Part shown: positions 35,701 to 62,426 of the stretch, one piece after another
Layout of the letters: the number at the start of each line of letters is the position of its first letter
Position numbering within the stretch: the first letter of the stretch is position 1
DNA from: Cliona cf. orientalis
Lineage: Eukaryota; Porifera; Demospongiae; Clionaida; Clionaidae
Length of the DNA stretch: 64,000 nt
Reading direction: 5' to 3'
Assembly: GCA_963930775.1 (NCBI GenBank)
Contig: OZ005689.1
Span: 15,902,760 to 15,966,759, forward strand
Position numbers and translations under genes: made by a program
Notes under the pieces: generated by a model
The model's input: only the letters and a program-made list of their open reading frames with translations
Told to the model about the DNA's origin: nothing
Database searches by the model: none

Positions 35701-38700
35701 ACTTGGTATGTGGCTTCCCTTCAGATACTCAATCTCCACTAATTTCAAATGTTCATTGATCTTAAAGTCTGGAGGAAGGTGAAGTATCTTTTCTTCCAGA
35801 CTAACTCTTGAAGTAACTAGAAGGGTGACAGGAATAACTTGGTTCCTCTTATTTGTGTCATTGTGCACAGACAGAATAATTCCACTCAATACTTCTTCAT
35901 CCGGATGATTATATTTCAAACCAGAAGAGATGACGTACACTTTTGCAGGTATCTTTTTGTAAGATTCAGCTGCTGCTTTGGTGAAGACCACAGTCTTCCA
36001 TTGTTCTCTTTCTAGCCGTGTAAACAGGCTCCCTACTTCTGCAGGCATTTCCATAGTGACAACTCCAGTTTCCAGACGTACACGTTTACTTTTACGTGTC
36101 TGCATATGATCACGATACTTGTCCTTTAGTACCCGTTTTACGTCTTTATAAACCTTGACCAAATCTGTTGGCAGGTTTGATGTATTTGTATCGGAGCTGG
36201 AGAGATCCAATTTCCAAATATCTGACCACACTGTATTTAGCTTTCCCCTGAACTCCCCACACTGAGTCTCTAGATCTGATATAAGGCCACGAAGATCTGA
36301 ATGTAGATAAGCAAAGTAGGCTGCATACACTTTTAAAATGTCCATCCTCACACCATATGGCAAATGTCTTACTAGCTCAAAAACATCACCACTCATGTAA
36401 AAATTCACCAATGAGCGAAAAGCTAGCAAATACTTCCAATCTTTGCTAATGTTGCCCCGATAGTATTGCCTTTTGCTGCCATGGTGTGGGACCTGGAAGA
36501 CTTGGAGTGATTTTATTTGATTTTGAAGGAACTGGAGTGTTTCAGCTGTGGCATCTCCAGTAAGGATAGCAGCATTACCTATGTTTAGAATGGTACTAGA
36601 TTCGTTCCAGTCCTTAATACTTTTAGTAGCTTTGTCATGTTTCGACTCTTTCTCTGATGTACCTGGCTCACCCTGCTTGTATACTAGACACTTACATCCA
36701 CGACTTGACAGAGGAAAATACAATTTCAAGCATTTGGCCATTTTGATGAGATCATGCGAACCCTTTACTTCTTCATCAACAATCGTAGCTGCACTGAAGT
36801 TTAATTCTTGTAATCGGTATAGAAGAAATTTGCATAACTGATTATTTTTGTGTATAAAAGCTTCTGTGAGTACAAGGTGGCCTGTAAACTTCGTTTTGTC
36901 AGATAGTGTGACTCCTGGTCCATCACTCTTTGGTAACAGGCAGCAATTGTCATCAGTAAATAATTTAGCAATCAAATTGAAGTGGTCTGAATCTGGATGG
37001 CTCAGAATGATCCCATTTAAGTGACTTCGTGCTCCTTGCTGACATTCACTCAGAGCTTTTGTCAAATTTTGGCTTGTTCCCAGCTCAACGTGATCAGAGC
37101 TGCCACCATCGTAGAGGTAATATCTCACTCTTCCTGAAAATACAATGATCAAGCTACATCATGGCTTGGCTGATGGTTTATAACTCAGCATATTAGCTAG
37201 TGAGTATTTTGCAGTAGCTAAATGTAACGTTGTTAATACCATCCCTCACATGTCATGATCACCCAATACCTTAGTGTCACTAAATTTAGCTGCATTTTAA
37301 TAATAATTATAGCGAATTTAGTGACTGGAAGCACAATCGCTATAAATTAATATGCTGCTAAACTGGAAATATCAAATTAAAATGTTGCTAACTTTGGTGA
37401 CAATTATAAATCATACTACACCTTAAATATATTTGTTGCAAGATTTGCATGGTACATTTTATGAAAACTTGACCATATCCTCGGTGGCTGCATAGAGGAA
37501 TGGTGCATGTGGTAAAGGTCGCCAATATATACTGAGTTCACATTACAGCTAGTACGCCTCAGTCGCAGACTAGACTCTGTTCATCTGGAGTCTGAGAGTC
37601 GCTCTCGACCTCGACAGTGAAAAGTTTCAAGTCTGAGAAGAATTCAACAGCGCATTACAACTTCCGAACCGTCTTCAGATCGGTCCGGTGGCACGCACTG
37701 TGCGTGCTTAGCCTGGTGGGCCAGCCCCTTCAAGAGAGGGGCTGGCCCGCCAGACTAGTGCGTGCTTATATATAGCGCAGGGTTATCTATATATATCCAC
37801 GGCATTATGTCAGCCAAGAGAACGTGTGAAGTTCGGCCGTCACTGCTCGTCAAAGAAGGCAACACGCTGCTTGTAAGGTATTCGCTGAATACATGCGCAA
37901 GATACTCTACATATTCACTGAATTTCGAGTCGCAGAAAGGCTCCATCGAGGCCCTGAATTTTTTCATAATTACCTCATAGATTACATCATAGGTTTCATC
38001 ATAATTAACGCATAATTACCTAATAACCTCAAAAAAAGTAAATTGTTACCGAAGACATAATGAAAAACTTAGAGACTACGTCCAGAGTCTCTCATGAATA
38101 CGCTGCCATAGGACACATTGACAAACTGCGCATGCTCCGTATACGCGTACAATATTGGGGCGCGCGGCTTGAGCCGGTTGTGCCATGTGCTCGACTGAAT
38201 AGGGAAATCCCCCTGCCCTGAAAGTGAGCTCGCTAGAGAAAACGAATTGAGACAAACGCCATAATGATATCATTGGATAGTCCACGATCTCTTCAATTCT
38301 ACGCTAGGTTCGAATTCTGGGTCTCAACACCCTGTCGTGCAAGCTAAACATTTTGAAGCAGTTTTCAACCTAATTTCATCATAGGTTTCATCATTATTCA
38401 TCATAATTACCTCATCGCGAGGCCAAATCGATTTGTTGATTGGGACTCTGGACGTAATGAACAACTTAGAGACTACATCCCGAGCCCCTCATGAAAAGTA
38501 TTGCACCGCGCTACTGTACGCTGACATAATTCGAACTAGGACACTTCGACAAACTGCGCATGCTCCGTATATGCATATAATATTATTGGGGTGCGCGGCT
38601 TGAGGTGGTTGACCCGGACGTGACCTCTACCTGCCATGTGCTAGACTGAACAGGGAGATTCCCCCCCCCCCCACCCCCCGAGTGCGAACTCACCAAAGAA

Positions 38701-41700
38701 AGCCAACTGAGAGAATCGCCATATCTCATCGATAGTCCACAATCTCTTCTACGCTAGGTTCGAATTCTGGGTCCCAACACCCTGTCATGCACGCTAAACA
38801 TATTTTGAAGCAGTCTTCACCCCCGAATTTCATCATAATTTCATCATTGGTTTTATCAACCGAGGCAGATAAGACTGAAAAGGACGCCATCCTACCAACG
38901 CCACCACTCAGCAGTGGTAATGGTACGTAGCCGTACAAGGGGGTAGGCTTGCTGGAAGGGGGTGTATTGGTGGACCCAGCGCTCTGGAGCGGAGTGCAAA
39001 AGGTGGCGTCGGGAGCCACTGGCGGCATACCAAGCAACGCAGTAACTATGTCTCAAGGAAACGGGACAACGATTTCCCCCTCCACGCCATTGACTAGCGT
39101 TCTAAAACTCAGCTCAAGCGAGCAGACCAGTGAAGCAATCATAGTGGGGATGAACTCCCCACCGGTTCCCAAAAAGGTAGCCAAAAAGATATGGAAGGGC
39201 GAGTACATACAGCTCGATAAGTTACTACCCTCTAACTTGGGGGCGCCAGAACTAACCTTGGTAGACTTGCTGGGAAAAAATCAGGAGAAACAAGAGTGTT
39301 CTAAACGAATAAAAACCATTCAACAGTGGGTGATATGCTTTAATGCATACACTAGCATTGTAGCTATCAAACAACCAGAGAGAATTAGAAACTTGCTAGC
39401 CTACTCATTGATGGTTACCAAGGCTAGCGCAGATTATCAGGGCACACCATGGTTGGCCTACGATATCCATTTTCGACAAGTAGCAGTAGTCATGAAACAA
39501 ATAGATTGGTCACAGGTAAATTCTTCTCTATGGACCCAGTAATGCGAAGATAGCGACAGCCCAGGACTCGGGTCTAACAATGGTACCGGTCCACCAGCCA
39601 GACGAGAAGGGTGTGGAAGAGAGTAGCAACTCGGGCTATCGGCCAGAAAAACAGCCTAAAAAAGACACGAAGTGGAAACCGTATCCAAAAGAGCAGCCGA
39701 TATTCTTGAGATGGAATAGAGCAGGATGCCGGGATGCAAACTGCTCATATCGACACATTTGCATAGACTGCCATTCACCAAAGCATAAGCTCTCTGCATG
39801 CCCAGGAAAAGAGAGTGCACCGAATCAGACTTGGCAGACTCAGGGCTGGCAAACACATGCACAGATGTAGCCCTTTCGGATCCCTGTCGAGGGTCCACGC
39901 AAATGAACTAGCTGACTATCAAAACTGGCAACTAGCACATACAGTGATTCATGCTAATTACTTATCTGATTTGTATGTAGACACAGACAATAGCACTGAT
40001 TTTGGTTTGTTAGATACTTGGGATGTAGATCTTTATCTTAATCAAATGTACAAGCTCGCTGAGCAGGATACTATGTATGCATGTTGTGATGTTGTGTATA
40101 ATAATAGTCAATTACCAAACCTGTATAGTAATGACCATCAACCCATTGATGACAAACAAAACATAGCCACAATACAGCAGCAGCAAACAGACAGCTTAAG
40201 CTGGCAGAATGGTTTATCTGAACAAAAGCCATATCCATATACAGCATATTATGTGGTGGCAATGCAAGCATGCATCCCATCAGCCCCATGTACAAAAGTG
40301 CCAGCATCAGCAGAGAGAATTGTGACACCACTAAAACTGCAAAATTGGCTGTCAGCCATGAAAGAATACCCAGATGCGCAGTTCGCAAACTATATAGAGA
40401 CAGGCATTAAACATGGATTTCGGATAGGATTTCAGTGTGGCTCAGTGCTATGCATATCAACAAAAGCTAATGCAAAATCAGCTTCACTTCATCCCAGGCC
40501 CATCACAACATATTTAAAAGAAGAGTTAAAGGAAGGTAGAATCGCAGGCCCATTTCCAATGGCAGCAGTGCCTGAAGTACAGTGTAATAAGCTTGGGGTG
40601 ATACCAAAATCTACACCTGGCGAGTGGAGGTTAATACTGGACCTATCATTCCCAAGACAACACAGTGTCAATGATGGTATTCCAAAAGAGTTATGCTCAT
40701 TACAATAGCCAACGGTAGACGAAGCAATCGGCCACATCCTGAGGCTCGGAAAAGGGGTACTCTTAGCAAAAGCTGACATAAAACATGCATACAGAAATAC
40801 CGTATATGTTCTAATATAGGCGCCACCCTAATTTAGGTGCCCTTTGAGACCTGCGCAATTTTTTCGGTTCTAATTTAAGGCGCCTTTCCGGACATCAATT
40901 ATTTTTAGGCGGCGCCTACTTAATTGGAACGTATTGCAATAATTATATGGCAACACCGCAGTACTGTACCGTACCGTACCGTATACCGTCGATCGATCCA
41001 TCAAGCTAGCAGTTTAGATGTCAAACTAAGCTGTCTCTTACATTTATATGGACACTTACCGACTGCTTTGATGTCTTTCTGGGGTTAGAGACAATCGTTC
41101 TGATGGCTACGGTATCGACAACTTGAGAATGATTCAGCGATCAGAATGAAATTTCCAAAAAGAACTGAAACTAGAACCATATTTTTGTTGTTCTCGCCAC
41201 TATCATATTGACTGCCACTAAATAGGACCGATTAGTGATGGCGCTTGTGCTCTGGCAAAACTTACAGAATCGTTCTAATTGCAGCTCTTAGGCACCGCCC
41301 TAATTTAGGCGCCCTTTGACCTGCTCGTGGATTTTTCAGTTCTAATTGGAGGCGCCTGCACGATCTGTAATTATTTTTTGGGGGCGCCTATATTAGAAAG
41401 TATACGGTATTCCAATTCACCCACAGGACAGGCACCTGTTGGGTATGCAATGGGAGGGAGAGTTATACATCGACATGGTTCTCCCATTTGGTTTGAGATC
41501 TGCACCGAAGATTTTCACGGCAGTGGCAGACATGGCAGAATGGATAATGAGAAGGTGAGTAGTATCCTGGTGCTTACACTACATCGACGATTTCCTTATC
41601 GCGGGGAGAGCAGAGACTCCAGAATGCGCTAACAATTTGCAGGTACTAATAGCAACGTGTGATTACCTAGGACTTCCCCTGAAATCACACAAACTAGAGG

Positions 41701-44700
41701 GTCCGACGCCAGTATTACTGTTTTTAGGCATTGTCTTAGACACAGTAAGAGAGGAGATAAGGCTACCAGAGGAATAACTATCTGAACTAATCAAATTGAT
41801 TAAATACTGGCTGGGTTTGCATAACTGCAAGAAGCGCAACTTGTTATCGTTAATAGGAAAACTCTCACATGCATGCAAAGTAGTTCAAGTTGGCAGAATA
41901 TTCCTGCGAAGGATGATCGATTTGGCATCGAAGAACAAACAGCTAGATCACTGGGTGCACCTTAATTCGGAGTTTAGAGCCGATTTGTTATGGTGGGACA
42001 CCTTCCTAAATTTATGGAATGGACGTAGTATGTTTGAAGTACACAACCCTATCTGGCAACCCCACATAACATTCAGCTCAGATGCTTCCGGTTCATGGGG
42101 TTGTGGTGCCATTTGGAACAACAGATGGCTACAGGTACAATGGGAAACACACTGGCTTGAACTAAATATCGCCATCAAAGAACTATTGCCAATCACATTA
42201 GCATGTGTAATCTGGGGTAGTCACTGGGGCCATCAACATAAAGTGTGACAACATAGCAGTTGTTCACGTGATCACCAATTTGACGAGCAGAGACCCCATG
42301 CTCATGCATTTATTAAGATGTCTACATTTTTCTGTGCAATGTATAATATTAAACTAAGAGCAGAACACATTGCTGGGGTACATAACACAATAGCTGATGC
42401 CATTTCGCGGAATAATTTGTCCATCCTATTTGCACAGGTACCTCAGGCAGAGAGAGTTGCCTCGCCAGTACCTCACGAGCTATTGCACTTCCTTGGCAAC
42501 AATCAACCCAACTGGCGATCACCTACTTGGAGGGGTTGGCTACAGAATTGGTCGATAACAGTCTGGCCAATAGTTCTAGGAGATCGTACACCTCCGCTCC
42601 AGTGGCAGCAGTACTCTGCTTACATGGCGAGACAAAGGGCTTATTGAGCCGCCGTAGGTGGCGAGAGGGCATGTAATCCGCGTAGTGCTAACGTAGACGG
42701 CGAAATCCTAATTGTTACTAAAAATAGCAAAACGTTCAATGAACAAACTAGTATAGGCAATGTTTGTACCTGGTTTTATAGCGACCTACTTCCACGCTAA
42801 GCCTTTGTTGGCAGCACCGAAGATCCAGAAGGCAACACCAATCGTCGAGATAAGTGAAAAAGAGGCTATACTCGAGTCGATCAGAGACAGTGGCGGTGAA
42901 AAACAGCTCTGAGCTGACAAAACGCCATCACACGCTGTATCAGACTAAGCTGGGGTCATGAGACGTTGAAGGCCTTCATTCTAAGCTAGTCTTTAATACA
43001 ACAAAATCAGAAGCTTACCCCATCGCTTCTGTCTCTGTCGTTGGGCGGAAAAATGAATGGAAGCTTTACACTGCTGGAGACTCAGACTCAGCTCGATTTT
43101 GTTTCTGACACTTGGCAGCGTTGAGAACCGCCTGAAAGGACCATGATAGCCTCTCTTCTTTGTCAAATCTCGAAAAGAACGGCCTGATAAGCCATCAAAC
43201 AAAATTTCATAGCTAGTCAAAAAATCTATTTTTAGTAACATGTTGGATTTCGCCGTCTACATACGTTACATGCCCTCTCGCCGCCTACGGCGGCTCGTAA
43301 GCCCTTGGCGAGACGAACAACATATGAAGGCCCTTTATTTGTCTTGGCATCGGGGCAGCTGCTAACCAGACAAAAGTTAGTAGATCTAATCAAACAAGCT
43401 ATTCAACAAGCCGGCATTGATCCGTCAAACTATACAGGACACTCCTTTCGTATCCGTGCAGCGACGATAGCTGCAGCAAATGGAATAGGAGATGCAACAA
43501 TCTAGACATTGGGCAGATTGTCAAGCGACTCGTATACACGGTATATCCGCATTCCAAGACATCAGCTGGCAAGTCTCTCTAAAACATTGTCGAATGACTA
43601 GCGATTGCAGGGGTTGATGGTCGATATTCATTTGTGAATTCTAAAATTATTGTTAACAGTATTATATTATTGTGTGAAAACAAGTATGTTTGATGTCACA
43701 ATCATGGGATAATATACTACTACTAACAGCATGCTATAGCATAATCTAGTATAGCGCGCATGCGCAGATGAAGACCACACCCCTCACTGCAAGGTAGCTG
43801 TCACCATGTAATGGCGACGTTCTCACTCCGCTCGAACCGGCGTCGAATCTACCACCAGACCATGACAAACCCTGAGAGCAGACATCGCCTCTAGCTTCGC
43901 TTGAGGCTCGGTGGCCTGCCGAGCAGGCCTGTCGAAACGCGCAGCGCTTGCGCCGCTCGCTCGAGCTCCGAGTCGAGAATGCATCTCTATGGCTCCTAGG
44001 CCCTGGCAACCTCGTTTATGCACACGGCACAACAATTCTGACCAATCACGAGTCTGTAGGAGAGCGCATCTTTTATGCCCTCCAGGTTAGGACACAGACT
44101 ATATAAGAAAATTGTCACTCTCAAAAATATTTTTCGTTGTATATATATAATTATGTGAAACAATGGTATTGGTTATTACCAAATCAGGAGTACTAGATAA
44201 ACATATGATGTCATTAAGTGTACGGAACTTTGGGGGATATATTTGGGGGATTCCAAAGTCCCGTGGGAACAACAGAGTCAGCAATGTAACTTGTGGTAAC
44301 AGGCATAAATAAGTAGTGGACAGGAAGGGCCCCCTTGTCAGCAGCAACCAGTAAGGGGAAGCAGGAGGGTATGCCCACTGGCAACCCGAAACGCATATGC
44401 CTACTCGCAACCTAATAGAACAAAAGATGCCCGCTGGCATCTAGAAACCACAAGGGATGCCCGCTGGTGTCTGAAGGCAGTAGGAGATGCCCGCTGGCAT
44501 CCAGAGATAGCATTGTGATAGCAAGACGCCCACAGGCATCGGGACAGGGGACAATTTCTCACCTGTCCCAAGTGGGAGGGGTACCATGACCCCTCCCAAG
44601 CGCGAGCGAGTTGACCCCAGGTACCAACTGCCAAAGGTAAGATAATAAGGGACAGTCTGAGTCGTGATAGAGGACATCCTATTTTAATGAACAACTTAGA

Positions 44701-47700: not shown

Positions 47701-48212
47701 GAGTGGCCCCCTATGCCTTCTAGTTCTACATTAGTTTTTCTTTGATGTGGTAACTCAAGCCTTTAAATTGATGTGGTTAAAGAATCCACCCAGACCACGC
47801 CCACCCGCTATGTGAATTTAGATATATAACATAATGTCTGTCTGTGTTCATAATATTTGTAGGTTGAGAGCTATGCCACCTTGGAGCAATGCCAGTGTCA
47901 TAGTGGAACTGATGCATACATAATATTAACACTATTAGATTACAATGAACTGATATCAGGTATTTTAATCATAGTACATGCAGGTCTATAAAGGCATACT
48001 ATACGGATGATATCATCTATGATAAAGGTAGTTTGAGAGCTCGCCAAAAGCGCTATATAATAAACAGTGGGATCTGGACAGCTGCGCCCACACGATCGCG
48101 CTGCGTCGCTGCTTCGCATACCCGGAGAATTGTCTTCATCCACCTCGATGATGTTGGCCAGGCCAGCTCCCACATTGACGACGTGGAGAGTGAGTCTGTG
48201 TCGTTCTGCCAT
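26703..48212 (-). CDS. Giant MBL-fold / FN3 / coiled-coil protein, 3,396 residues
   Basis: Four exons: 48212-48122, 37133-28635, 28425-27910 and 27787-26703. All have GT-AG borders and exactly matching phases (total 10,191 bases, stop included). The first exon gives LTLHVVNVGAGLANIIEV, the usual opening strand of a ComEC/Rec2-like MBL fold. Exon 2 continues YYLYDGG, then LSHPDSDH (residues about 75-81), ILTGD (220-224) and PHHGS (246-250), all typical of that fold. A very long beta-rich middle follows, with a hydrophobic stretch near residues 2100-2125 (ITAVSAFMTGGLLALVSWLA). After it come FN3-like modules, an extracellular-type cysteine-containing module in exon 3, and a lysine/glutamate-rich coiled coil in exon 4. 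Metal binding is predicted from the motifs; substrate and location are unknown. Exon 2 is an uninterrupted 8.5-kb frame, so the gene is very likely functional. Confidence 0.8.
37495..37980 (+). repeat. Dispersed repeat R2, copy 3
   Basis: Contains GGTAAAGGTCGCCAATATAT, GCCTCAGTCGCAGACTAGAC, CTCTCGACCTCGACAG and GTGAAGTTCGGCC in the same order as the 3285 copy. An internal stem is present near 37710-37755 (GGTGGGCCAGCCCCT / AGGGGCTGGCCCGCC). Confidence 0.65.
38060..38395 (+). repeat. 390-bp terminal-type repeat, copy A
   Basis: First of four copies (A 38060, B 38456, C 44686, D 46165). Shared blocks: ACTTAGAGACTAC, CAAACTGCGCATGCTCCGTA, GCGGCTTGAGCCGGTTG and ACGCTAGGTTCGAATTCTGG. A and B are in tandem. 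The last block matches a tRNA-type B box (GGTTCGAATTC). Confidence 0.75.
38655..38682. repeat. Poly-C tract in repeat copy B
   Basis: A C run with a single A. The same position in copy D (about 46303-46320) is also poly-C, while copies A and C have only short runs there. Confidence 0.8.
38949..39870 (+). pseudogene. DIRS gag-like region with zinc knuckle
   Basis: The first frame, ending at a stop at 39542, carries KIWKGEYIQLDKLLPSNLG, TIQQWVICFNAYTSIVA and a GTPWLAYD block, recognisable from DIRS gag-like proteins. A frame change then leads into 39580-39870, with a cysteine/histidine module RAGCRDANCSYRHICIDC...C. Probably one ancestral ORF encoding the capsid/nucleic-acid-binding protein. 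The spacing of the cysteines differs from a retroviral CCHC knuckle. Confidence 0.6.
39900..42410 (+). pseudogene. DIRS reverse transcriptase and RNase H, broken
   Basis: Conserved RT pieces: GVIPKSTPGEWRLILDLSFP near 40600, an in-frame TAG at 40706-40708, then LLAKADIKHAYRN up to the insertion at 40800. After the insertion come PIHPQDRHLLGMQWEGELYI, VLPFGLRSAPKIF and the catalytic YIDD near 41585. The thumb runs near 41790-41900. RNase H starts at TFSSDASGSWGCGAIW (near 42080), continues past a stop at 42246 and ends EHIAGVHNTIADAISR near 42370. The element copies RNA to DNA in its family; this copy cannot. Confidence 0.75.
40800..41407. mobile_element. CCGTA-end MITE inside the RT, 608 bp
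   Basis: Ends CCGTATATGTTCTAATATAG and, inverted, CTATATTAGAAAGTATACGG, flanked by TA on both sides (40798-40799, 41408-41409). Just inside each end lies a roughly 110-bp direct repeat beginning CGCC(A/G)CCCTAATTTAGG, at about 40816-40925 and 41285-41398. The RT frame continues across the insertion from AYRN to IPIHPQ. Confidence 0.8.
42540..43605 (+). pseudogene. DIRS tyrosine recombinase fragment
   Basis: Downstream of the insertion are GPLFVLASGQLLTRQKLVDL, the catalytic GHSFRIRAAT (H-x-x-R) and, after an in-frame TAG at 43503-43505, LGRLSSDSYTRYIRIP with the tyrosine. Much of the N-terminal recombinase is missing, because the sequence before the insertion (ending SAYMAR) is too short. 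The family integrates circular cDNA through a tyrosine-linked intermediate. Inactive here. Confidence 0.75.
42635..43306. mobile_element. MITE inside the DIRS recombinase, 672 bp, 9-bp TSD
   Basis: Terminal inverted repeats AAGGGCTTATTGAGCCGCCG and, inverted, CGGCGGCTCGTAAGCCCTT continue through GGCGAGAGGGCATGTAA and GTAGACGGCGAAATCC. Flanks are GGCGAGACA (42626-42634) and GGCGAGACG (43307-43315), a 9-bp duplication with one mismatch. TSD length and long TIRs fit a Mutator-like non-autonomous element. Removing it restores a continuous frame. Confidence 0.8.
43740..44100. other. GC-rich segment in the DIRS 3' region
   Basis: GC- and CpG-rich relative to its surroundings (e.g. CGCTTGCGCCGCTCGCTCGA). 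No credible gene was found in either strand. Confidence 0.4.
44360..44545. repeat. Imperfect tandem repeat with GATGCCCGCTGGCATC core
   Basis: Four to six units of about 38-42 bp, each centred on the palindromic block GATGCCCGCTGGCATC or a variant. Confidence 0.7.
44686..45020 (+). repeat. 390-bp terminal-type repeat, copy C (DIRS 3' repeat)
   Basis: Matches copy B in order and orientation (AATGAACAACTTAGAGACTA, ACTGCGCATGCTCCGTACAC, CAACGCTAGGTTCGAATTC). B and C bracket the DIRS coding region. Confidence 0.75.
45038..45254. mobile_element. CCGTA-end MITE, 217 bp
   Basis: Ends CCGTATACGCGGAAATATTG and, inverted, CAATATTTCCACGTTTACGG, flanked by TA. The inside is full of AATTTGGCGATTT-type inverted blocks. 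No coding capacity. Confidence 0.8.
45253..45415. repeat. 50-bp tandem repeat
   Basis: About 3.3 copies of GGTTAGCAGGGTTAGTTCGG followed by CAGTGTAGGGTTGGGTTTCG and GCTACCGTAT. Confidence 0.85.
45691..46161. mobile_element. TAGCC-end MITE, 471 bp, relative of the helicase transposon
   Basis: TIRs of about 62 bp begin TAGCCTTGTCCCCAGGCCTT and end, inverted, AAGGCCTGGGGACGAGGCTA. Flanks GAATATGCC and GAATACGCC form a 9-bp target duplication with one mismatch. The terminal 18 bases match the ends of the 6-kb element, but the inner sequence does not. It lies inside repeat copy D. Confidence 0.8.
46165..46510 (+). repeat. 390-bp terminal-type repeat, copy D
   Basis: Shares CAAACTGCGCATGCTCCGTA, TGCGGCTTGAGCCGGTTGAC and CTACGCTAGGTTCAAATTCT with copies A-C, including the AATTGGGACTCTGGACATAA tail near 46515. 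Its start was split by the TAGCC-end MITE. Confidence 0.7.
47115..47405 (-). repeat. Dispersed repeat R3, copy 2
   Basis: Reverse complement of the 9955-10245 copy. Flanked on the left by an unrelated GC-rich segment. Confidence 0.75.
47410..48115. other. Intron DNA, no feature recognised
   Basis: Part of the long intron of the giant gene. Short open frames only. Confidence 0.4.
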
Positions 48213-48260: not shown

Positions 48261-48270
48261 CTTTTATAGC
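48261..48270 (-). promoter_or_regulatory. TATA box for the giant MBL gene
   Basis: GCTATAAAAG on the minus strand lies about 50 bases upstream of the ATG at 48212, implying a 5' UTR of roughly 20-25 bases. The MULE left end is at 48307, so almost no ancestral upstream DNA is left between them. Confidence 0.55.
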
Positions 48271-48452
48271 GCTCCACTCCCCAAGAACGGTGAGGCATTG
48301 TGTCATGGGATCGACTAAGTTCACCCCGTTTGAAACGGTTACGTCACTGACCCCACCCCTTACGCGGCGCGCGCAGTTGTACTCGGTACTCGGTACGGGT
48401 ACTCGTCCATAATAATATGCAAACTTGAAGAGCACCAAATAAAAGCACACCA

Positions 48453-51400
48453 TCAACAAAGGAAGTCAGAAAAGTTTGGAGGCCATGTGTCCGTTTGTTC
48501 CATGGCCTGAAGAACAGATAGTGGCACAGCTGGAATGTTCACGCCAGGAGGAGCTAGGATTGTTCCATGTATCAAACCTCCAGCAAAGGTACGTGCACTC
48601 ATCTTAGTGAGGGTACTCAGAGAAGATGTGGGTGTAGATTGTAGAGTAGCAGTGCCATCGGTTTTTGCCCTCTTGGCAAGTTGTATGCCTAGTTGAACAT
48701 GAATCAGTGGTTAGAGGGTCTCTTACTTGATACAAAAGTTCATACTTACATTTACGCTTGATGCAGCACTGTTTCTTTCTGCCAGGGCCTCCAAACTTGG
48801 GTTTGTCTTTACAGTTGATGCAGGTGCCACAGTCGTGTTGCTCTGTACACCCTTGACAATCACCACACCTACCCCTCTTTCTGGTCCCAACTGCATTGTG
48901 GAAGATGTAAGTACACGGTTTAATACAGTATGATTCCAACCCTACCCTTCACATACCTACTGGAACAGTAGCGATGGTAGTATAATTAATCGGCTTGGTA
49001 CCATTGTTGACCACTTTAGGTACTCTGTAATTGGATGATAATTGCACACATGTATTAGTGTGTGTATTCGTATACGTATGTATATGGACATGTACCTTGA
49101 ACTTTGTTGTACATGTAGCTTTGATACAGTTGGCTGTTCTGCTGAATGTTTATCCTTTAGTTCCTATTGTAAACAAATTCAAGTGATTCAAAGAGTTATG
49201 TCTTAGTCTAATGCACCTTCCGTAAGCGATCAGCTTTGGCTCCAACTCTGTTACGAATCTTTGAATCGGCTTTTTTCCTACCCCTTGGTTTTTGTTTGGG
49301 TAGTCTACTACAGGAAAGGTTTAGCTTCATCCGTGCATACTTCCGTTTTGTATTCAAGGCTCGGGAAATTACTGAAGGTCGAACAACTAGTTGTTCTTCC
49401 TGTGGTAGACCAGCTCTGAAAGTTTGTAATGAACACTTGAGTTCAGTGTCCAAATCCACTAACTTGGTGACATCAGTACACAAGTATGTTAATGATTCTA
49501 AACACTTGAGTGTTATTCGTGCTTGTTCCCCAGCAGTTTTTAGAGATACACTTCGTACCTATATTATTATTAAAACATAATAATATACTATCATTTAAAT
49601 TTTGTGCATTCTTGTGATACTATACATTGTACATGTACTTACAGGCTTTGGAAGGTTAGTTACAGAGGTACCGCTCTCAGCTGTGGGGTGATTCTCTGTA
49701 TCTATGACTGACAGTTCTTCTAAATTATCAGTGGATGACTGAAAGTAATCTTGGAGTGCTTGGGTGTCCGTCGAGAGATAAGCGCTTTGCAAGTAAGTTT
49801 GAGGGAGGTTATTCCATGACCATGCTGATCGGTGGGTGAAGATGGCAAAAAAATGTTTGCATGGTATGTGGTATCTAAGCCAATCCTTGCAAGTGCAAGA
49901 AGGCATTTGTTGCGAGCTACTGATACCAAAATCAACCCTATGCTTGCTTCCAGACGTTTTTTCAACCTCAAATACTCCTTTTTCGCTGTCGATATCATGT
50001 ATGCTGTCGGCTAAAAATTTTGAGCTGTTAGTACGCCTGTCCAGACAGTGTATGATGACTGATCTTGGCCGGTCGTGCAAGTAGGAAGGAATGTGACTGT
50101 GATATGAACGATACATTGAGGACTGTTGAAAATTTTGTAGCACATATTGTTGCCTTCGAGTGGGTAGAAAGTTTTCTACGATGATGCTGACTGTACTAGA
50201 AAGTGTAGCCTTTTGCTTCCTCCTAGGCAAAAAGCTGTACTTGAACAACCTGTTCTGTGCTTCTGTCCCGTTGTTTGTGTCGACAGCAGCATGGTAGTTG
50301 TCATCCCTGTATGCCCTTGCCCAGCGCTATAAATAAATTGGAGGGGTGTGAACTATATTATACATGATTGTACATATTAAATTTTTCACAAAGCATTAGA
50401 CTAAGCTTACTTGGGGTATTGTCAGCCACTTAGCTGTAAGCCATTCTCTCACTTGTTCATGATTGTTCCATACTGCTGATTGTTTGAGATTAGTCACTGC
50501 TAACTTGTAAGCACTTGTAGGATCAGCTTCGTCAGTAGGGGGAGCCCAGGCACAAGCACGCAAAAATGTAAGCAGTTCTTCTGCTTCAGTTTGACTCAAC
50601 CCATGCTTGTGATCCTTAGCCCAACGATCCCAGGCTTGCTCCCTGTGGAAATCGCACAAATACACGGTAGTTGCTGGAAATACCTCTTCAAGAGCTACTA
50701 GCTCCGCCTCTGAGTAGTCACTCATGAAGTAGAGTGGGCACCAATTGGGATTCCAAACCTTGAGCTTAGCCAAGGCCTCGGATATGCTTTCAGCCGTCTC
50801 ACTTTGAATCACAAACTCTGCCACGACAGAATATCCCACATTGGTTTTTACACAGATGAAAAATAAAGCAAGATCATACTTGGTGGTTTTATATGTAGCG
50901 TCGATCAAACTGATTGTATTACCATATCTGGCTAGTAGCTCCTGTTGCCATTTACTTTGATGTATCCAAAGTAGGGTTTGTTCATAGTTATTGGTGTCCG
51001 TGATAATGCCAATTCCATTTCCACCATCATTACCATTGAAATGACCTTCTACTGTTGTTTCTGTAGGTTCCTCAGTTGGTGTTGGAGAAGTCACATCCTT
51101 TGCATCCTTGATGAGGTATGGTCGAAAAAAATGTAGACTTTCTGGATCAGAAATTTTCCATTCGTTAATTTTGAGATGTAGATTTTCTTGATCTAGGCAC
51201 GAAAGCTGAAGGGCTCTTTTAGCCATGTATATGTGGTTTTTCAAATCACTATCAATAGGAAAGTATGCTCTGTCGTCAGAATTTGGTGGGCTTTCCTTAC
51301 ACAGATCATGAGTTACATAGTGCCGTAAAAGCCTTCGAACCTCATGAATCTCTGTAATTCCCTCAGCTACTAATTCCGAAATTTTTGCCGCTACTTTCTT

Positions 51401-51883
51401 ATTCATTCTCTGAGAGAATCCAGCAACTCTGTTACCTGTGTGATGACCAGTATGGGCTTCTTCTGTTGGCAATGATACAAAGTAGACTATACGTGTGGCC
51501 ACACACTTTTGTGTAGATAACGCTGCTTTAAGCTCAAACATTTTCCTCTCTCGGAGGGTACGTATAGTTGCCTTGCCCTGCAATTCCACTTTGTATTCTG
51601 GGTATGCTATGCACTTTCTGATCGAAATGTGTGCGTGACAGCCCTTCTTCCTACTTCCCTGAATCAGTACTCGGGAGCTTTTATGGGATTTATCTTTGTA
51701 ATAATGAGGGCCAAATTGGCAATCTAACTGTCGACTTTCAGCTATGCAAAATGGTGTGTTGTCTAGCTCCATCCGTCCATTTGCCCAAAATAGCTTTGGA
51801 ATTGAATTCTGTATGATAAAAAAATTTCCCCCCTTTATGCAGGACATGTTTGGCAAGGAGTGAACATCAAAGTGACTATTCAT
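48453..51883 (-). CDS. MULE transposase with SWIM and CXXC zinc fingers, 1,003 residues
   Basis: Exons: 51883-50411, 50326-49643, 49558-49217, 49163-49096, 49024-48957, 48890-48750 and 48688-48453. Phases match at every junction and the sum is 3,012 bases with one terminal stop. Residues 46-84: cysteine/histidine region like WRKY-GCM1 (QGSRKKGCHAH). Residues 320-420: MULE core with LIDATYKT (D328), MSDYSEAE (D389), CDFH (410-413), and a candidate third acid in NNGTEAQNR (E513). Residues 635-649: SWIM finger C-x-C-x9-C-x-H. Residues about 882-925: CXXC finger with RCGDCQGC, DCGTCINC, KFGGPG and KKQCC, the pattern of CpG-binding CXXC domains. The C-terminal exon runs into the left TIR region. 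A further exon at 52275-52085 may add an N-terminal part. Confidence 0.85.
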
Positions 51884-51897
51884 TCTTATTCTATACT

Positions 51898-52068
51898 CAG
51901 TGTTCTCCCCAAGCTAAATTCAAGGCATGACAGGAGGGCATAGTTTGGGTGGCCGGAGCCTGTGGCCTCATCAAAGCACATGGATTGTCAATATTCACAC
52001 ATCAAAGAAAAGTCTGTACTGAAGGCCTATTGGGCCGACATGCCTTGGGTATGCTAGGGAGAACACTG
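51898..52068. mobile_element. CAGTG-end MITE in the MULE 5' intron, 171 bp
   Basis: Ends CAGTGTTCTCCCC and, inverted, AGGGAGAACACTG, with 5-bp flanks ATACT and ATATT (one mismatch). The related copy in the neighbouring MULE (near 53960-53975) lacks it, reading TATTTATACTGTGTTTTTAC, which serves as the empty site. Confidence 0.75.
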
Positions 52069-52084
52069 ATATTGTGTTTTTACC

Positions 52085-52275
52085 TTATTCTGTGTGTCTG
52101 TACTGATATTCTCTTTATTCACCAACAATGTATTTCCAGACCGAGACTTTGACGATCTACGTGTACCGTAGCTGGTCACAGTTGCCCTTGAATGTGATGA
52201 GAGCAACTCATCAAGGTCATCAACCCATCCCTCATAGTATGTACCACATCTTTGAAGTCCCTTGCTCCAATCCAT
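52085..52275 (-). CDS. Possible 5' exon of the MULE gene
   Basis: ATG at 52275 opens MDWSKGLQRCGTYYEGWVDD and ends at AATAAG followed by a GT donor, phase 0. To join the transposase exon in frame it must use an acceptor about 20-30 bases upstream of 51883, such as AATTTAG/CTTGGGGAG, which lies inside the 171-bp MITE. The alternative is that translation starts at 51883. Confidence 0.4.
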
Positions 52276-52960
52276 GATACAGTTATACGCTGATCATATG
52301 TGTCTCTACCTGTCCAACAGATCAGTATAAATTTGGGGGTTTTAGCTTCAAAGGGAGATAGTTTTCACACTTACAATGAAGATGTGTGCACAGGGAGAGC
52401 TGAATGTTGATGTGCAGGCTGCAAAGGCAACGTGTAGGTGTGTAGGCCAAAGAGAAGAAGTCGTACTTGGCGCCAATTCGCGGGAATCCACGTGGTGGCA
52501 ATCATGCGGGCCCGGGAACCGGGTACGTGAATAGCTGGCCGGCTACGTAGCTGGATAATCGATACGCCGCGCCGCGTAAAGCTTAAAGGGGTGTGGTCAA
52601 TGACGTAACCGTTTCAAACGGGGTGAACTTAGTCGATCCCATTGTGTCATGGGGATCGACTAAGTTCACCCTGTTTGAAACGGTTACGTCATTGGTCCCA
52701 CCCATTTCATGCGGCGCAGCGCATCGTTGGCCGCCGCTAGTACTTGCACTCTGAACCACCCATAACACCAAAATTAATTTTGCCATGAACAAAGAAGTCA
52801 GAGCTAGAGCTAGGGAAGGCTGTGTCTGTCTGTTTGTGTCATGCATGGCCTGAAGAAGAGGTAGTAGTACAGCAGGGATGCTCACGCCTGGAGGAGCTTG
52901 GATTGTTCCCATGTAGCAGACCTACTAGTACTGCAAATTAAGGTACGTGCACTCATCTTT

Positions 52961-53343
52961 GGGCTATTCCAGATAATGAGGATACACCCCTATGGAGGAA
53001 GATTGATTAGTATTGTAGGATCAAGATTTAAGGTGATTTAATGAAGTAATGAGGGCATTTTATGGATTTTAATGAGGTATTGTAGGCACCATTGTAGATA
53101 GTAATGAAGTATTGAGGGGGCATGGCAGTGAATAATATTATTAGTATAATTTGATGGAGTAGCTGGTCAGGGTATGGAGGAATTACTATTACATTTGTAG
53201 GATGAAATAGAGATTACTGATCTGTTTTATAGACTAAAATGAGCAAATTGATTAGTTTTGATGATTATTTTTGCACTTTAATTGATATTTAGGGTAGTGA
53301 ACATAAATCTCTAGCGGTGTACGCCTATTATCCGGAATAGCCC
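52961..53343. mobile_element. GGGCTATTCC-end MITE, 383 bp
   Basis: Ends GGGCTATTCCAGATAAT and, inverted, ATTATCCGGAATAGCCC. Flanks CATCTTT and TTTATTA allow only a 3-bp TTT duplication. It sits inside the second MULE copy. Superfamily not determined (PIF/Harbinger-like TSD length). Confidence 0.7.
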
Positions 53344-54060
53344 TTTATTAAAATTAATGGTGAAGGTGCCGATTCTACAGTAGCAGCTTGCTCTCTTAGT
53401 CAAGTGAATGCCTAATTGAACATAAATCAACGGTGATAGGGTGTCTTTAATACTTGAATACATCAAAGATTTAAGTACACAATTTCCCAATTGATGCAGG
53501 TGCCACAGTCCTGTTGCTCAGTAACTATAGCCTTGACAATCGCCACACCCACTCCTCTTTCTGGTCCCAGCTGCATTATGGAAAACATACCCACGTTATG
53601 AAAAACGTAAGTACACGGTTACATGTACATGTACCACTCCAATCCCCTCTCATATAATATAGCCCTTCACGTATCTACTGAACAGTAGCAGTATATTTGA
53701 TTGGCTTAGTACCATTCCTGACCACTTTAGGTACTCTGTAATTAGATAATAACTGTACGTATGTACTTGTGTATGTGTACGTGTGTGTGTGCATACATTG
53801 TCGTACATGTAGCAATTGGCTATTCAGAATATTTGTCCTTAGTTCCCAATGTTTTAGTCTAACGCACCTTCCGTAAGCAAATATTGAATTCTGTATTATA
53901 TAGAGGGAATATTTCCTCTTTGTACAGGACATATTTGGCAAAGAGTGAACATCAAAGTGACTATTTTCTATTTATACTGTGTTTTTACATTATTTTAATT
54001 TGTGTGTCTGTACTGATAATAATTTTTCATTTCCACTTACAATGTATGTATTTCCAGACC

Positions 54061-54105
54061 TAGCCTTGTGAATTGACCTGGGTACAAGGCTACGTGTTCC
54101 AGACC
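54061..54105. mobile_element. Tiny TAGCC-end insertion, 36 bp plus 9-bp TSD
   Basis: TAGCCTTGTGAATTGACCTG and GGTACAAGGCTACGTG are flanked by TTCCAGACC on both sides (54052-54060 and 54097-54105). The first MULE has the unoccupied site at about 52133 (TGTATTTCCAGACC running on into GAGACTTTGA). The termini match the helicase transposon family. Confidence 0.8.
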
Positions 54106-54249
54106 TGGATTTTGATGGTCTACCGTACGTGTGTACCAATGTAGCTAGTCACGTTGCCTTTGCATGTGATGAGAGCAGCTCATCAAGGTATCCCATCCTT
54201 CATAGCAGGTACCATTCCTTTGAAGTCCCTTGATACAGTCACATAATAT

Positions 54250-54720
54250 GTAAGCCCAGACCAATTAAATAAGTTGTTGCACGGATTCGCTCAATTGCTC
54301 CAGTTATTGGGCAAACAGAAGAAAAAAAATGTAATCAAGTTGGGTGGAGCTTATATACAATAGAGGGTTTTTGTATTCTATCTTGATTCCCTGGTCCTAG
54401 ATAGTCACATTAGTCTGTCTTAATTAGAATGTGGTCTATAACCACACCCCAATTGATTGCTTTTTTGCTTTTTTTCCTTTTTTTCGGTCGCTCGGTCCAA
54501 GTTTTACCTCACAGTATCCGAGCAACAACAAATTAAATTAACTACCAGTCAAACCAATCAGTATCATAAACTTAGTGTTTCTATATAGCTTCAAAGTTCC
54601 ATAGTTTCGTATAGTGAAGACGTGTACGGTGTACACAAGGGAGAGCTGGATGTTGATATGCAATTGCGGATTTGTGGACTACAAAGCTAATTACATGTAA
54701 GTTATAATTTAGTAACTTTC
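54250..54720. other. Unassigned segment of the second MULE
   Basis: AT-rich DNA with no counterpart seen in the first MULE and no gene. Possibly another insertion. Confidence 0.35.
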
Positions 54721-55141
54721 CCCATTGATTTATGATCAACTGACTAAGAGAGCAAGCTGCTACTGTAGAATCTGCACCTCTACAAGTACCTTCACTATTA
54801 ATTTTAATAAAGATGACTCAGCTCTTGACGAGGCTAATGAGTGCACTGAGACGTACTTTGCAGTAGGTCTGCTACATGGGAACAATCCAAGCTCCTCCAG
54901 GCGTGAACATCCCTGCTGTACTACTACCTCTTCTTCAGGCCATGGCACAAACAGACAGACACAACCTTCCCTAGCTCTAGCTCTGACTTCTTTGTTCATG
55001 GCAAAATTAATTTTGGTGTTATGGGTGGTTCAGAGTGCAAGTACTAGCGGCGGCCAACGATGCGCTGCGCCGCGTGAAATGGGTGGGGCCAATGACGTAA
55101 CCGTTTCAAACAGGGTGAACTTAGTCGATCCCTTGTGTCAT

Positions 55142-55660
55142 GCTATAAGCGCTGATTGCCTGCTAATTGAAGCCGCACGCGCCCACGCGGTAAATGAACA
55201 CTGGGCGTGGTGGATGTCTGATAAGTTCGCGTGTACATTCAAATTTGCCCGCTGAGGCTCGCTCTGCTGGGCGTTCGACTTTCTAGGCATCGTGTAGGCT
55301 CTCGATCCTATATTTATCAGTTTTCTCACTCTTTAGCCGTCCATAACCGAAGATTGCAGGCTTCTCAACTCGATCGTCGCGAATGTCTTCTGCGCTGCAC
55401 GTGTTCGATTTCCGCGTACTTCCGTGGACTATACCGTGATATTGGTAGCGAGTCCAAAGGATAATTTTAACCCGCAAAAATGCGTCGCTTGTTTTTACGC
55501 GTTATACTCTATCTAAACGCGGCACCATAAAGTGACATTACAAATTTTCATATCCACAAGCCAATTCTCGACCGTTTTCCATGCTTCGCACGTCAATCGG
55601 CAGCTCTTTTGCTGTACTTTCTGGATTTGATGGTAAGCAACATCAAGACATAATTTTTCT
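55142..55660 (+). other. CpG-rich segment with a possible first exon
   Basis: CpG-richer than its surroundings. ATG at 55581 opens 17 codons and a fragment (MLRTSIGSSFAVLSGFD) and reaches a GTAAGC donor at 55633. No partner exon was found. It could be a promoter region that once served the giant gene, now more than 6.8 kb from its first exon, or a separate gene. Confidence 0.3.
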
Positions 55661-59463: not shown

Positions 59464-62426
59464 GCGGTAATTACCGAATATTGACCAGTACCTAATATCA
59501 ACCAGCTATCTTCGACCTCCTGCACCTATTTTCGACCATCGTAGTATCCCTCAATAAACGGGAATTTACGGATACTTATCAGTACACCTGAAGTGCTCAA
59601 GAGTATCATGGCTGGAAAGCACAAAAGGAGACGCTGAAAGGGAGCACCGAAGCCTAAACTTAGTAACAACTGACCGAAAAAGTATCGTCAGTGGACAAAA
59701 GAATCAATGGCTGGCGCAATGAAGAGCTATTTGGATGGGAAAATGGGAATGAACAGGGCAGCTGACCAGTATGGCGTACCAAGGACAACGTTGAAAGATA
59801 GGTTGTCTGGGAGAGTGACTTTGGGCACCAACCCTGGACCTGTACCTTATTTGACACCCGAAGAAGACGAGCTTGTTAAGCACTTGCTGACGTGTGCTGA
59901 TATTGGATATCCGAAAACAAAGCAAGAAGTATTAGCGATCATTCAACAGGCTATCCACAAGAAAAGAGAAGATGCTGCAAAAGAATTTACAGGGAAGGGG
60001 TGGTGAAATCAATTTGTTGAAAGAAGGCCAGATATCATGCTCCGAAAAGGTGATGCTCTGGCAATTCCTCGAACCAATGCTGTCACGGCAGCGAATATTG
60101 CACAGTATTGTAACAGCCTACTCAAGAAGACACTGGAGGAGATCAGTCTCATGGGATGCCCCAACAGAATTTACAACATGGATGAATCAGGAATGCCTTT
60201 AGATCATAAGCCGCCAAAGGTTGTGGCTCGAAAGGGCACAAGAAAAGTACATTGCCGTACTTCTGGAAACAAATTACAGATATATAGCTAACTGTGCTTG
60301 TGTGTGCCAATGCCACAGGGTCAGTTGTTCCTCCTATGGTAATTTTCGAGCGTCAGCGCTTTAACCCAGAATGGAGCAAAGGTGAAGTGCTCTGCAGCAG
60401 ATCGGACACTTTCATATAATGAATGACCATCAACCAGCAGTTGGTGGCCGGGTTGGTGGAATGTGCTTTATAAACTGCTCGGTTAGCCAGTAATAAAACA
60501 GTTCTTGATCCGTCCAACCCTTCTCGGACATACCGTAGAGAGTGTCTGGTATTATCATCTTCTGTTTGCCTCCTCATTCTACTCACATTGCACAACCATT
60601 AGATGTGAGCTTTTTTCGTCCCTTGAAAGTATATTGGTCGGAAGTGTGCCACCTGTTCATGCAAGAGAATCCCGGGAGCTAGTGTTGTGTTTTAGTGGCA
60701 AGGGAGGTGCAACATATTATGGTCCTAGCGACAACAAGTCTACCTCATTTTCTTTTGAATAGATAGAACTGTTCACTACCTGGTACGAAAATGGATATGA
60801 CATCTGTATACTGATGCTGAGTACATGATCTGGTTGGCTGAAACTCATCCTGATGCTTTACCAGATTACTATAGCAATCCTGAGGATTATATTAATCAAC
60901 GTTCAGATCCCTTTCGACCACTTGAAGAGGATGATCCAGTTGGCGACAAACAGAGTGATAACGATGGAGCTGATAATTCAAGCCACAATGGTGGTGAAAC
61001 ACCCGGAGAAAATGATATGGAAACAGAGAACACTGGAACACCTCATCCTGATAACAATACACTCGGGGGAAGGTGATATGGACACTGGTGGTAATGGAGC
61101 ACCTTCTTATCCTGATGATAGCATGCAACAATCAAGCACACCTGCTCAAAGGAATCCAGAAGCTACCGCAGTGTCTCGTGAGGTGCACACGCCTTCCAGT
61201 ACCTGTCGTCCGTCAACTACGTCAAGCAGAGCTTCATCCCTTGGATCTGAATCCAGAAGAAAACCACTCTCTCCGCTAACAGAATTTCTAACATTGCCTG
61301 ACATTCCTCCTACACAAAAATCATCAAAACCAAAAAAAATAGTGGAGCGCGTGTTCTCACAAGTGCCGATGCTATTGCAATGATGGAGGAAAGCAGAGGA
61401 AAAAGCGTGAAGAGGAAGAAGCTAAGGAACAGCGGAAGAGGGAGTGAGAGGAAAAGAAATTACAAAAGGAGGAAGAAAAACGAAAGAAAGCTGAAAAAAG
61501 GCAGAAATGAGAGGCAGAACAAAAGAGAAAAGCAGAGGAGAAGGAGATAGAAAAGAAGACTGCGGAGTTAAGGGAGGCTGAACGGAAGAGAAAAGCTAAT
61601 ATAAACTCAAGGAGCATCGTCAAGCCAACAAAGAGAACTACCCACGTAACAGAAAGTACCCTACAAGAAGCACCGGTGACGGGCTCCAATAGGAAGAGAT
61701 CAGCAGCAATGTGAATGTGCAATATGTTTTGGCGCGTATGAAGATGACCTCATCGATGGTGAATTGAGTCAAGAATGGATTCAGTGCACCAATGACGGGT
61801 GTGAAAAATGGATGCATGCCGAATGCCTCTCTACTAATGATGATAGACTGTATGTGTATCAGGTATGCAGCAATACCTTTGCTTAGAACCAGATCATGCT
61901 ACACTAACTGATGCTAATAAAAACCATTAATTATTATTGTGTAGAGAAGTACGTACTTATATATTGAATCATTCTTATTATAATGCAACGATTGTTTCAT
62001 TTCCTTATTTCAACAGTTTTAATTTATTACTATTGCTAACATTGACATTGCAACACAGAATTTATTGTGCATTGATCTATATGTGTGCAGCATCTGTGTG
62101 TGTATTGGGGTCAGTAGTGTATGTACTATTAATAGTCCCTTTATGGCCTCTTCAAAGGGCAGCTGTTCCTGCGTGGTTGACAATATTATGTCTATAGGAA
62201 GTAAACACAAGGTCGATTAATACGTACACATGGTCGATTATTGGGTTTAAAACACTAGTACATAAATGGTCATAACGTATAGCCCTGAAAGTTGCATTAT
62301 TATGTTGTAGGTAAGTGGTCGCTCTTTCTGCTGGTGATTGTTCGGTGCAAAGGTCACGTTCTGAAGCAGAGATACAGCTCTAAGTACATTAATGGTCGAT
62401 AATTGGTAATTTACGCTACCAACATA
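59464..62426 (+). mobile_element. pogo/Tigger DNA transposon, inactive
   Basis: TIRs of about 25 bp (GCGGTAATTACCGAATATTG and, inverted, TAATTGGTAATTTACGC) are flanked by TA at 59462-59463 and 62427-62428. It contains a pogo-family transposase relic with a PHD-like C-terminal finger. Stops, frame changes and an internal inversion inactivate it. Confidence 0.8.
59610..61890 (+). pseudogene. pogo transposase with HTH and PHD-like finger
   Basis: Psq-type HTH near 59720-59810 (MNRAADQYGVPRTTLKDRL). DDE domain begins YNMDESGMPLDHKPPKV (near 60170, first catalytic D) and goes on to VVPPMVIFERQRFNPEW. The expected next section (YGMSEKGWTDQELFYYWLTE through LVDGHS) is found on the minus strand between about 60540 and 60380. 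The forward strand resumes with IIIFCLPPHSTHIAQPLDVS (near 60565). An acidic linker and a lysine/glutamate-rich coiled coil (61380-61620, with stops) lead to a C-terminal finger near 61720-61860 (CAICFGAYEDD, WIQCTNDGCEKWMHAECL). Family: cut-and-paste transposases with TA targets. Confidence 0.75.

Follow-up and report, generated by a model that had tools for sequence, protein, structure and literature searches.

A type-1 CXXC finger in the transposase of a Mutator-like element from the sponge Cliona cf. orientalis

The window analysed here is a stretch of 64,000 nucleotides from the demosponge Cliona cf. orientalis (assembly GCA_963930775.1, contig OZ005689.1, positions 15,902,760 to 15,966,759). 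It contains a DNA transposon of the Mutator-like element (MULE) superfamily, hereafter element 1, in which an intact minus-strand gene encodes a transposase with a CXXC finger near its C-terminus (Table 1). The gene model comprises eight exons, and all seven introns (53–170 bp) have GT...AG borders. The initial annotation had described seven exons joining to 1,003 residues, and exactly this product is reproduced when exons 2–8 are joined in frame from M75 (51883). The 5′ end of that model was too short, as an in-phase exon lies upstream (52275–52084). Together with ten codons of exon 2, this exon adds 74 residues to give a full model of 1,077 residues, the N-terminus of which resembles, in an alignment, that of the metagenomic relative P0001. 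At the opposite end of the protein, a phase-1 intron between exons 7 and 8 splits the codon for the finger's final cysteine.

The domains of the transposase were identified with Pfam, each scoring above its curated cut-off. These are ALS2CR8 (PF15299, 3.1e-28), the ZSWIM1-3 RNaseH-like domain (PF21056, 3.4e-12), the MULE transposase domain (PF10551, 5.8e-12; 46.3 bits versus a cut-off of 27.6), a SWIM finger (7.5e-6) and zf-CXXC (PF02008, 6.1e-15; 55.4 bits versus a cut-off of 26.5). The proposed combination of MULE catalytic motifs, a SWIM finger and a CXXC finger in one protein is thereby confirmed. Residues D402, D463 and E587, which we take to be the DDE catalytic triad, are invariant across four aligned sequences. 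As also proposed, the finger retains all eight cysteines, the KFGG motif and the KQ motif (as KKQ), the features of a type-1 CXXC finger. Among solved structures, its nearest neighbour is KMT2B (65 bits), with MLL1, KDM2B, MBD1 and DNMT1 next in order. Structure prediction gave a mean predicted local distance difference test score (pLDDT) of 58.7 for the finger alone (one sequence) and 48.0 for the MULE exon (four sequences). In the consulted part of a CXXC review, the KQ motif of such fingers is described as contacting CpG (PMC3685328). By analogy with MLL and CFP1, the finger in the transposase would bind unmethylated CpG.

Element 1 is bounded by terminal inverted repeats (TIRs) and a target site duplication (TSD). 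Its 57-nt TIR arms (48305–48361 and 52586–52642) are 96% complementary. Within the TIR (48307–48346) lies a near-palindrome, CCGTTTGAAACGG, with a CpG on either side, which is perhaps a dimer site. With TIRs and a TSD present and the sequence multicopy, a single-copy domesticated host gene of the CARF/ZSWIM type was ruled out.

Table 1 Features of the MULE-CXXC element, its transposase gene and the adjoining sequence (window coordinates)
Feature	Position	Strand	Basis
Element 1, autonomous-type MULE-CXXC transposon, 4,334 bp	48307..52640	-	Inverted repeats, TSD, intact gene within
TIR, 3′ side of gene, start GGGATCGACTAAGTTCACCCCG	48307..48361	+	Inverted-repeat arms
TIR, 5′ side of gene	52586..52640	-	Inverted-repeat arms
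TSD ATTGTGTCAT, 10 bp	48297..48306	+	Read from sequence
TSD ATTGTGTCAT, 10 bp	52641..52650	+	Read from sequence
Exon 1, newly added, MDWSKGLQR..., P0001-like N-terminal region	52084..52275	-	In-phase splice; P0001 alignment
Exon 2, N-terminal domain resembling ALS2CR8, then the RNaseH-like MULE core (D402, D463)	50411..51913	-	Pfam; both residues invariant across the four aligned sequences
Exon 3, last of the three acidic residues (E587), SWIM finger	49643..50326	-	Pfam SWIM 7.5e-6
Exon 4, basic linker	49217..49558	-	Gene model
Exon 5	49096..49163	-	Gene model
Exon 6	48957..49024	-	Gene model
Exon 7, type-1 CXXC finger	48750..48890	-	zf-CXXC 6.1e-15, 55.4 bits; KMT2B 65 bits
Exon 8, remainder of the finger's last cysteine codon and C-terminal tail	48453..48688	-	Gene model
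Element 2, same family, non-autonomous, 2,481 bp	52652..55132		Inverted ends of ~270 bp; remnants of first and CXXC exons
Outer TSD of element 2, TTGTGTCATG	55133..55142	+	Read from sequence; inner copy 52642–52651
TATAAAAG box upstream of adjoining host gene	48261..48268	-	Sequence
Host gene, candidate coding exon 1 (MAERHRLTLHVVNVGAGLANIIEVDEDNSP...) with splice donor GTATGC	48122..48212	-	In-phase join to 28600–37158 by inspection only

The fusion recurs in the genome. A copy was counted as linked if a zf-CXXC match lay within 9 kb downstream of a MULE/SWIM exon of the family on the same strand. Of 38 zf-CXXC matches in the genome, 23 are linked by this definition, the window copy included, and 15 are unlinked; none of the 38 was found in the control orientations. 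At 20 of 30 SWIM-exon loci, the CXXC match lies 689–1,153 bp downstream. A chance fusion is excluded, because diverged copies hold the finger at the same place, and the initial annotation's reservation that no other MULE copies might carry it is removed by the 23 linked copies. The window protein is mostly 30–65% identical to the linked copies, with one closer sibling, L053. The latter matches element 1 at 82–98% over most matched stretches, has about 2.9 kb inserted in the transposase region and has end CpGs that look decayed to TpG. The genome's four best MULE-domain matches (L001–L004) belong to other clades (22% identical), and none of the 38 zf-CXXC matches lies near them. Among the unlinked matches, one (L012:928-2859) is a single open frame of 644 residues with CXXC as its only Pfam domain. 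Three others (L015, L023 and L037) are CXXC exons with a MULE-type phase-1 acceptor that lack a MULE exon of the family in the 9 kb upstream; these are perhaps relics or further families.

The finger has been conserved and has diverged together with the transposase. Across 20 copies, finger distances correlate with SWIM-exon distances (Mantel r 0.78, a value reached in none of 5,000 permutations), and the correlation is 0.56 among 184 distant pairs, for which the mean distance is smaller for the finger (0.435) than for the SWIM exon (0.568). In 15 representatives, the finger shows a mean synonymous difference (pS) of 0.90, which is saturated, against a nonsynonymous difference (pN) of 0.31. 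Each of the eight cysteines is retained in 21–23 of the 23 linked copies, the four KFGG positions in 20–23, the K of the KQ motif in all 23 and the Q in 18. A phase-1 AG acceptor 6–8 codons ahead of the first cysteine is common to 17 of the 23 linked copies and therefore favours one main capture. It is lacking in L020, L028, L030, L031 and L032; in L053 the first cysteine is lost and the scan landed elsewhere. The same acceptor is present in the unlinked fingers L015, L017, L023, L037 and L051. A host KMT2 donor behind L017 was sought, and no FYRN or SET match was found nearby. The tree of the CXXC domain alone (~46 residues, 28 sequences) is poorly supported, with the MULE fingers forming no single supported clade and L033 joining the non-MULE gene L010 at a support of 79. 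A second capture may have occurred in the L020/L031/L033 group. A single ancient acquisition, followed by long joint evolution of finger and transposase, fits the data best.

The termini of the family share both sequence and CpG content. TIR starts like GGGATYNACTATGTTCACCCCG recur across unlike lineages, with 20 matches at up to six substitutions; 16 are left once doubly fetched loci are removed, compared with three when the same bases were mononucleotide-shuffled. A related TIR pattern occurs 140 times in the genome at up to two mismatches, versus 0 for the reversed pattern. The 40-bp TIR occurs 103 times at up to three mismatches, 63 of these perfect. Among 107 listed ends, 80 pair to give 40 elements and 27 are single; 36 of the 40 elements are presumably non-autonomous, because they are only 588–3,914 bp long. 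TSDs of 9–10 bp were found in seven of the eight elements with both ends available, while L039 has a diverged right terminus and no TSD was seen. In 18 mapped ends from seven lineages, the last 100 bp contain 4–13 CpG. The interiors of five elements average 1.6–2.2 per 100 bp, with an observed-to-expected ratio (o/e) of 0.39–0.53. Position 21 of the TIR varies among copies (T, C, G or A) and is often alike at both ends of one element, which may point to subfamilies or end conversion.

The sequence into which these elements have inserted is likewise rich in CpG. For ten insertions (16 flanks of 200–500 bp), the mean CpG o/e is 0.99, compared with 0.51 and 0.56 in two backgrounds that do not represent random genome, namely 204 overlapping windows of the 64-kb stretch and 141 windows of twelve fetched loci, respectively; none of 20,000 resamples was as high. 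Some insertions are also close to one another. Element 2 sits 11 bases from element 1, and the TSDs of the two, ATTGTGTCAT and TTGTGTCATG, overlap with an offset of one base. As the duplications are one base out of register, two insertions hit a common 11-bp target, ATTGTGTCATG (52641–52651). Three main-family element pairs lie less than 200 bp apart, versus 0.004 expected under uniform placing. Besides the window pair, two more adjacent pairs are seen in the genome, with gaps of 29 and 157 bp. Such pairs would fit both insertion beside existing CpG-rich ends and local hopping.

Element 1 adjoins a host gene on the minus strand. From its end, a TATAAAAG box follows after 38 bp and an in-frame ATG after about 95 bp, both downstream of the element in the direction of that gene. 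At the level of sequence, this supports the initial annotation's statement that the element sits at a promoter. The main host frame (28600–37158) is open over 2,853 residues, and about 11 kb separate it from its candidate first exon (48122–48212), which holds the ATG. The start looks metallo-beta-lactamase-like, and a Pfam scan of the long frame gave no match. Between the frame and its candidate first exon are retroelement-looking frames (38931–42644), two of which were scanned with no Pfam match. Further along, a frame at 59674–60003 has a helix-turn-helix Psq domain (8.1e-12) and is possibly another transposon-type gene. The window as a whole has a CpG o/e of 0.57, with TpG (1.28) and CpA (1.24) both in excess, the pattern expected from germline CpG methylation. 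In the Cliona cf. orientalis genome, DNA-methylase matches lie shortly behind a CXXC match on C9, in a DNMT1-like manner, and TET-like and MBD matches are found elsewhere.

Starting from the directly established gene model, domains, TIRs and TSDs, recurrence, finger conservation, end CpG clusters and CpG-rich flanks, the best explanation is that element 1 is an autonomous-type Mutator-like DNA transposon of a clade with a C-terminal type-1 CXXC finger, and that this finger brings the transposase to unmethylated CpG-rich DNA (probability of roughly 0.55). The finger would dock the transposase both on new, promoter-like targets and on the CpG-rich ends of its own element. Copies with unmethylated ends would then be mobilised and land in unmethylated, gene-proximal DNA. 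That targeting or excision depends on the finger is our conjecture from these sequence features. The initial annotation had suggested promoter targeting and a methylation gate as roles for the finger; the CpG-rich flanks and CpG-clustered ends lend sequence-level support to the two, respectively, but do not distinguish targeting by the finger from a general preference for open promoters. A tentative extension, in which we place distinctly less confidence, is that a whole animal transposon clade senses methylation. Its CXXC transposase would act only on copies with unmethylated CpG-rich ends, and the finger would steer it to promoters free of methylation, sites next to existing copies among them. 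Host methylation would in this way directly set both mobilisation and landing.

Several observations weigh against the proposed docking on CpG-rich DNA. Ten of the 30 SWIM-exon loci have no CXXC match, although several of these are fragments. The CpG-contacting Q is replaced by K in five of the 23 linked copies. Close pairs show few changes, too few for a ratio of nonsynonymous to synonymous rates, and the five changes between L011 and L029 are all replacements. The ends are not uniformly rich, as one end of L042 has four CpG and one end of L049 five, and single interior windows reach 4–10 CpG, with ten in one 100-bp stretch of L042. The TSDs themselves are mostly AT-rich, and at L053, one of the ten insertions, the flank is poor in CpG (0.24). 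The fetched loci used as background contain gene and transposon bodies, and one of them, L005, is a MULE-CXXC interior. As the flank comparison covered only MULE-CXXC insertions, its result is accounted for just as well by a general preference for open promoters. Finally, neither P0001 (890 residues) nor a sea anemone relative, P0092 (718 residues), has CXXC among its listed domains.

The rival explanations are not mutually exclusive, and their odds consequently do not sum to one. It is possible, though we hold it only tentatively, that the finger mainly reads the ends of its own element, with unmethylated CpGs permitting synapsis or cleavage, methylated ones blocking it and target choice being incidental. 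Such a gate is compatible with the best explanation. It would account for the CpG enrichment of ends in all seven lineages with a mapped end, for the recurrence of a CpG near position 21 in the unlike TIRs TTCACCCCG, TTCACGCCG, TTCACCACG and TTCACTCG, and for the apparent decay of CpG to TpG or CpA at some ends, for instance in L053 and at the left end of L039. In the 63 perfect main-family TIR copies, however, position 21 is a T, and the CpG is hence dispensable there; the CpG-rich flanks are also left unexplained by a gate alone. Rather doubtful is the proposal that the finger serves as an accessory module for DNA binding and that the CpG-rich surroundings only mirror a preference for accessible promoters shared by MULEs in general. 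The Q to K replacements and the make-up of the flank comparison speak for it. Against it stand the conservation of the finger at saturated synonymous divergence, which for distant pairs exceeds that of the SWIM exon, and the CpG clusters at the ends, which a passive module does not account for. Less probable again is an anti-silencing role, in which finger-bound transposase would shield the ends from DNA methylation with an outcome comparable to that of VANC in VANDAL MULEs. The ends retain CpG while the five interiors are depleted; in the literature, KDM2A, itself a CXXC protein, is described as enriched at over 90% of the CpG islands of the mouse (PMC3685328), and VANC as a MULE protein that counteracts silencing and induces hypomethylation (PMC6446971). 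A conserved function of the TIRs can by itself preserve the end CpGs, though, and many copies look young, with 63 TIRs identical over 40 bp. The idea that the CXXC exon belongs to a neighbouring host gene, as an annotation artefact or chimera, can be dismissed, since the exon is spliced in phase and enclosed by the TIRs, its order is common to 23 copies and remnants of it are kept in adjoining element 2.

DNA transposons are usually viewed as passive targets of DNA methylation. If the proposed reading is true, a transposase with a conserved reader of unmethylated CpG ties both the movement of the element and its choice of target to the methylome of the host. Promoter choice, and a methylation block beyond transcription, would become testable through one protein module and its KQ motif, and the finger could offer a possible natural route to tools for CpG-island-directed gene insertion.

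Relatives of the transposase were also found elsewhere. A protein database search retrieved three relatives with a single sequence and 281 with a profile. PF02008 is present in none of the 120 profile relatives listed out of these 281, most of which are frames of about 400–500 residues that match the big exon and so could not contain the finger. A search of the protein database with the finger region alone gave two candidates and no match, and scanning IMG/VR with P0001 returned none either. In its consulted part, a 2019 survey that collected 1,631 MULE sequences gives TSDs of 8–11 bp (PMC6446971). The string "CXXC" has no occurrence in that text, and its zinc-finger table, down to group 42, contains PHD, FLYWCH, SWIM, C2H2 and CCHC and no CXXC. 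MULE-derived host factors are the subject of another paper, seen in part (PMC10027918). A description of a MULE-CXXC fusion was not found in the open-licence literature, as judged by titles and the starts of abstracts, which is not proof that there is none.

The MULE domain, SWIM finger, TIRs and TSDs of 9–10 bp are features that the Cliona element has in common with the MULE superfamily, whereas a CXXC finger is missing from the survey's zinc-finger table down to group 42. PF15299 and PF21056 are shared with CARF (ALS2CR8) and ZSWIM1/3, which to our knowledge are single host genes without TIRs or CXXC; the Cliona element, in contrast, is multicopy and mobile. The eight cysteines, KFGG and KQ are shared with KMT2A/B, CFP1, KDM2 and DNMT1, all of which are host chromatin proteins, while in the Cliona element it is a transposase that holds the finger. 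A parallel in design is offered by the chromoviruses, retroelements in which a chromodomain that reads a histone mark is fused to the integrase. Both systems place a chromatin reader on the integrating enzyme, which in Cliona is a putative CpG reader on a DDE transposase. VANDAL MULEs act on methylation, but do so through VANC, which is encoded by a separate open reading frame and causes hypomethylation, with no CXXC mentioned in the part of the survey consulted (PMC6446971). The TET/JBP genes of fungal transposons, as described in a 2025 report (PMC12730594), are likewise a case of DNA transposons with a captured host DNA-methylation module; there the module is an enzyme that oxidises 5-methylcytosine, in other superfamilies, whereas in Cliona it is a putative reader fused into a MULE transposase.
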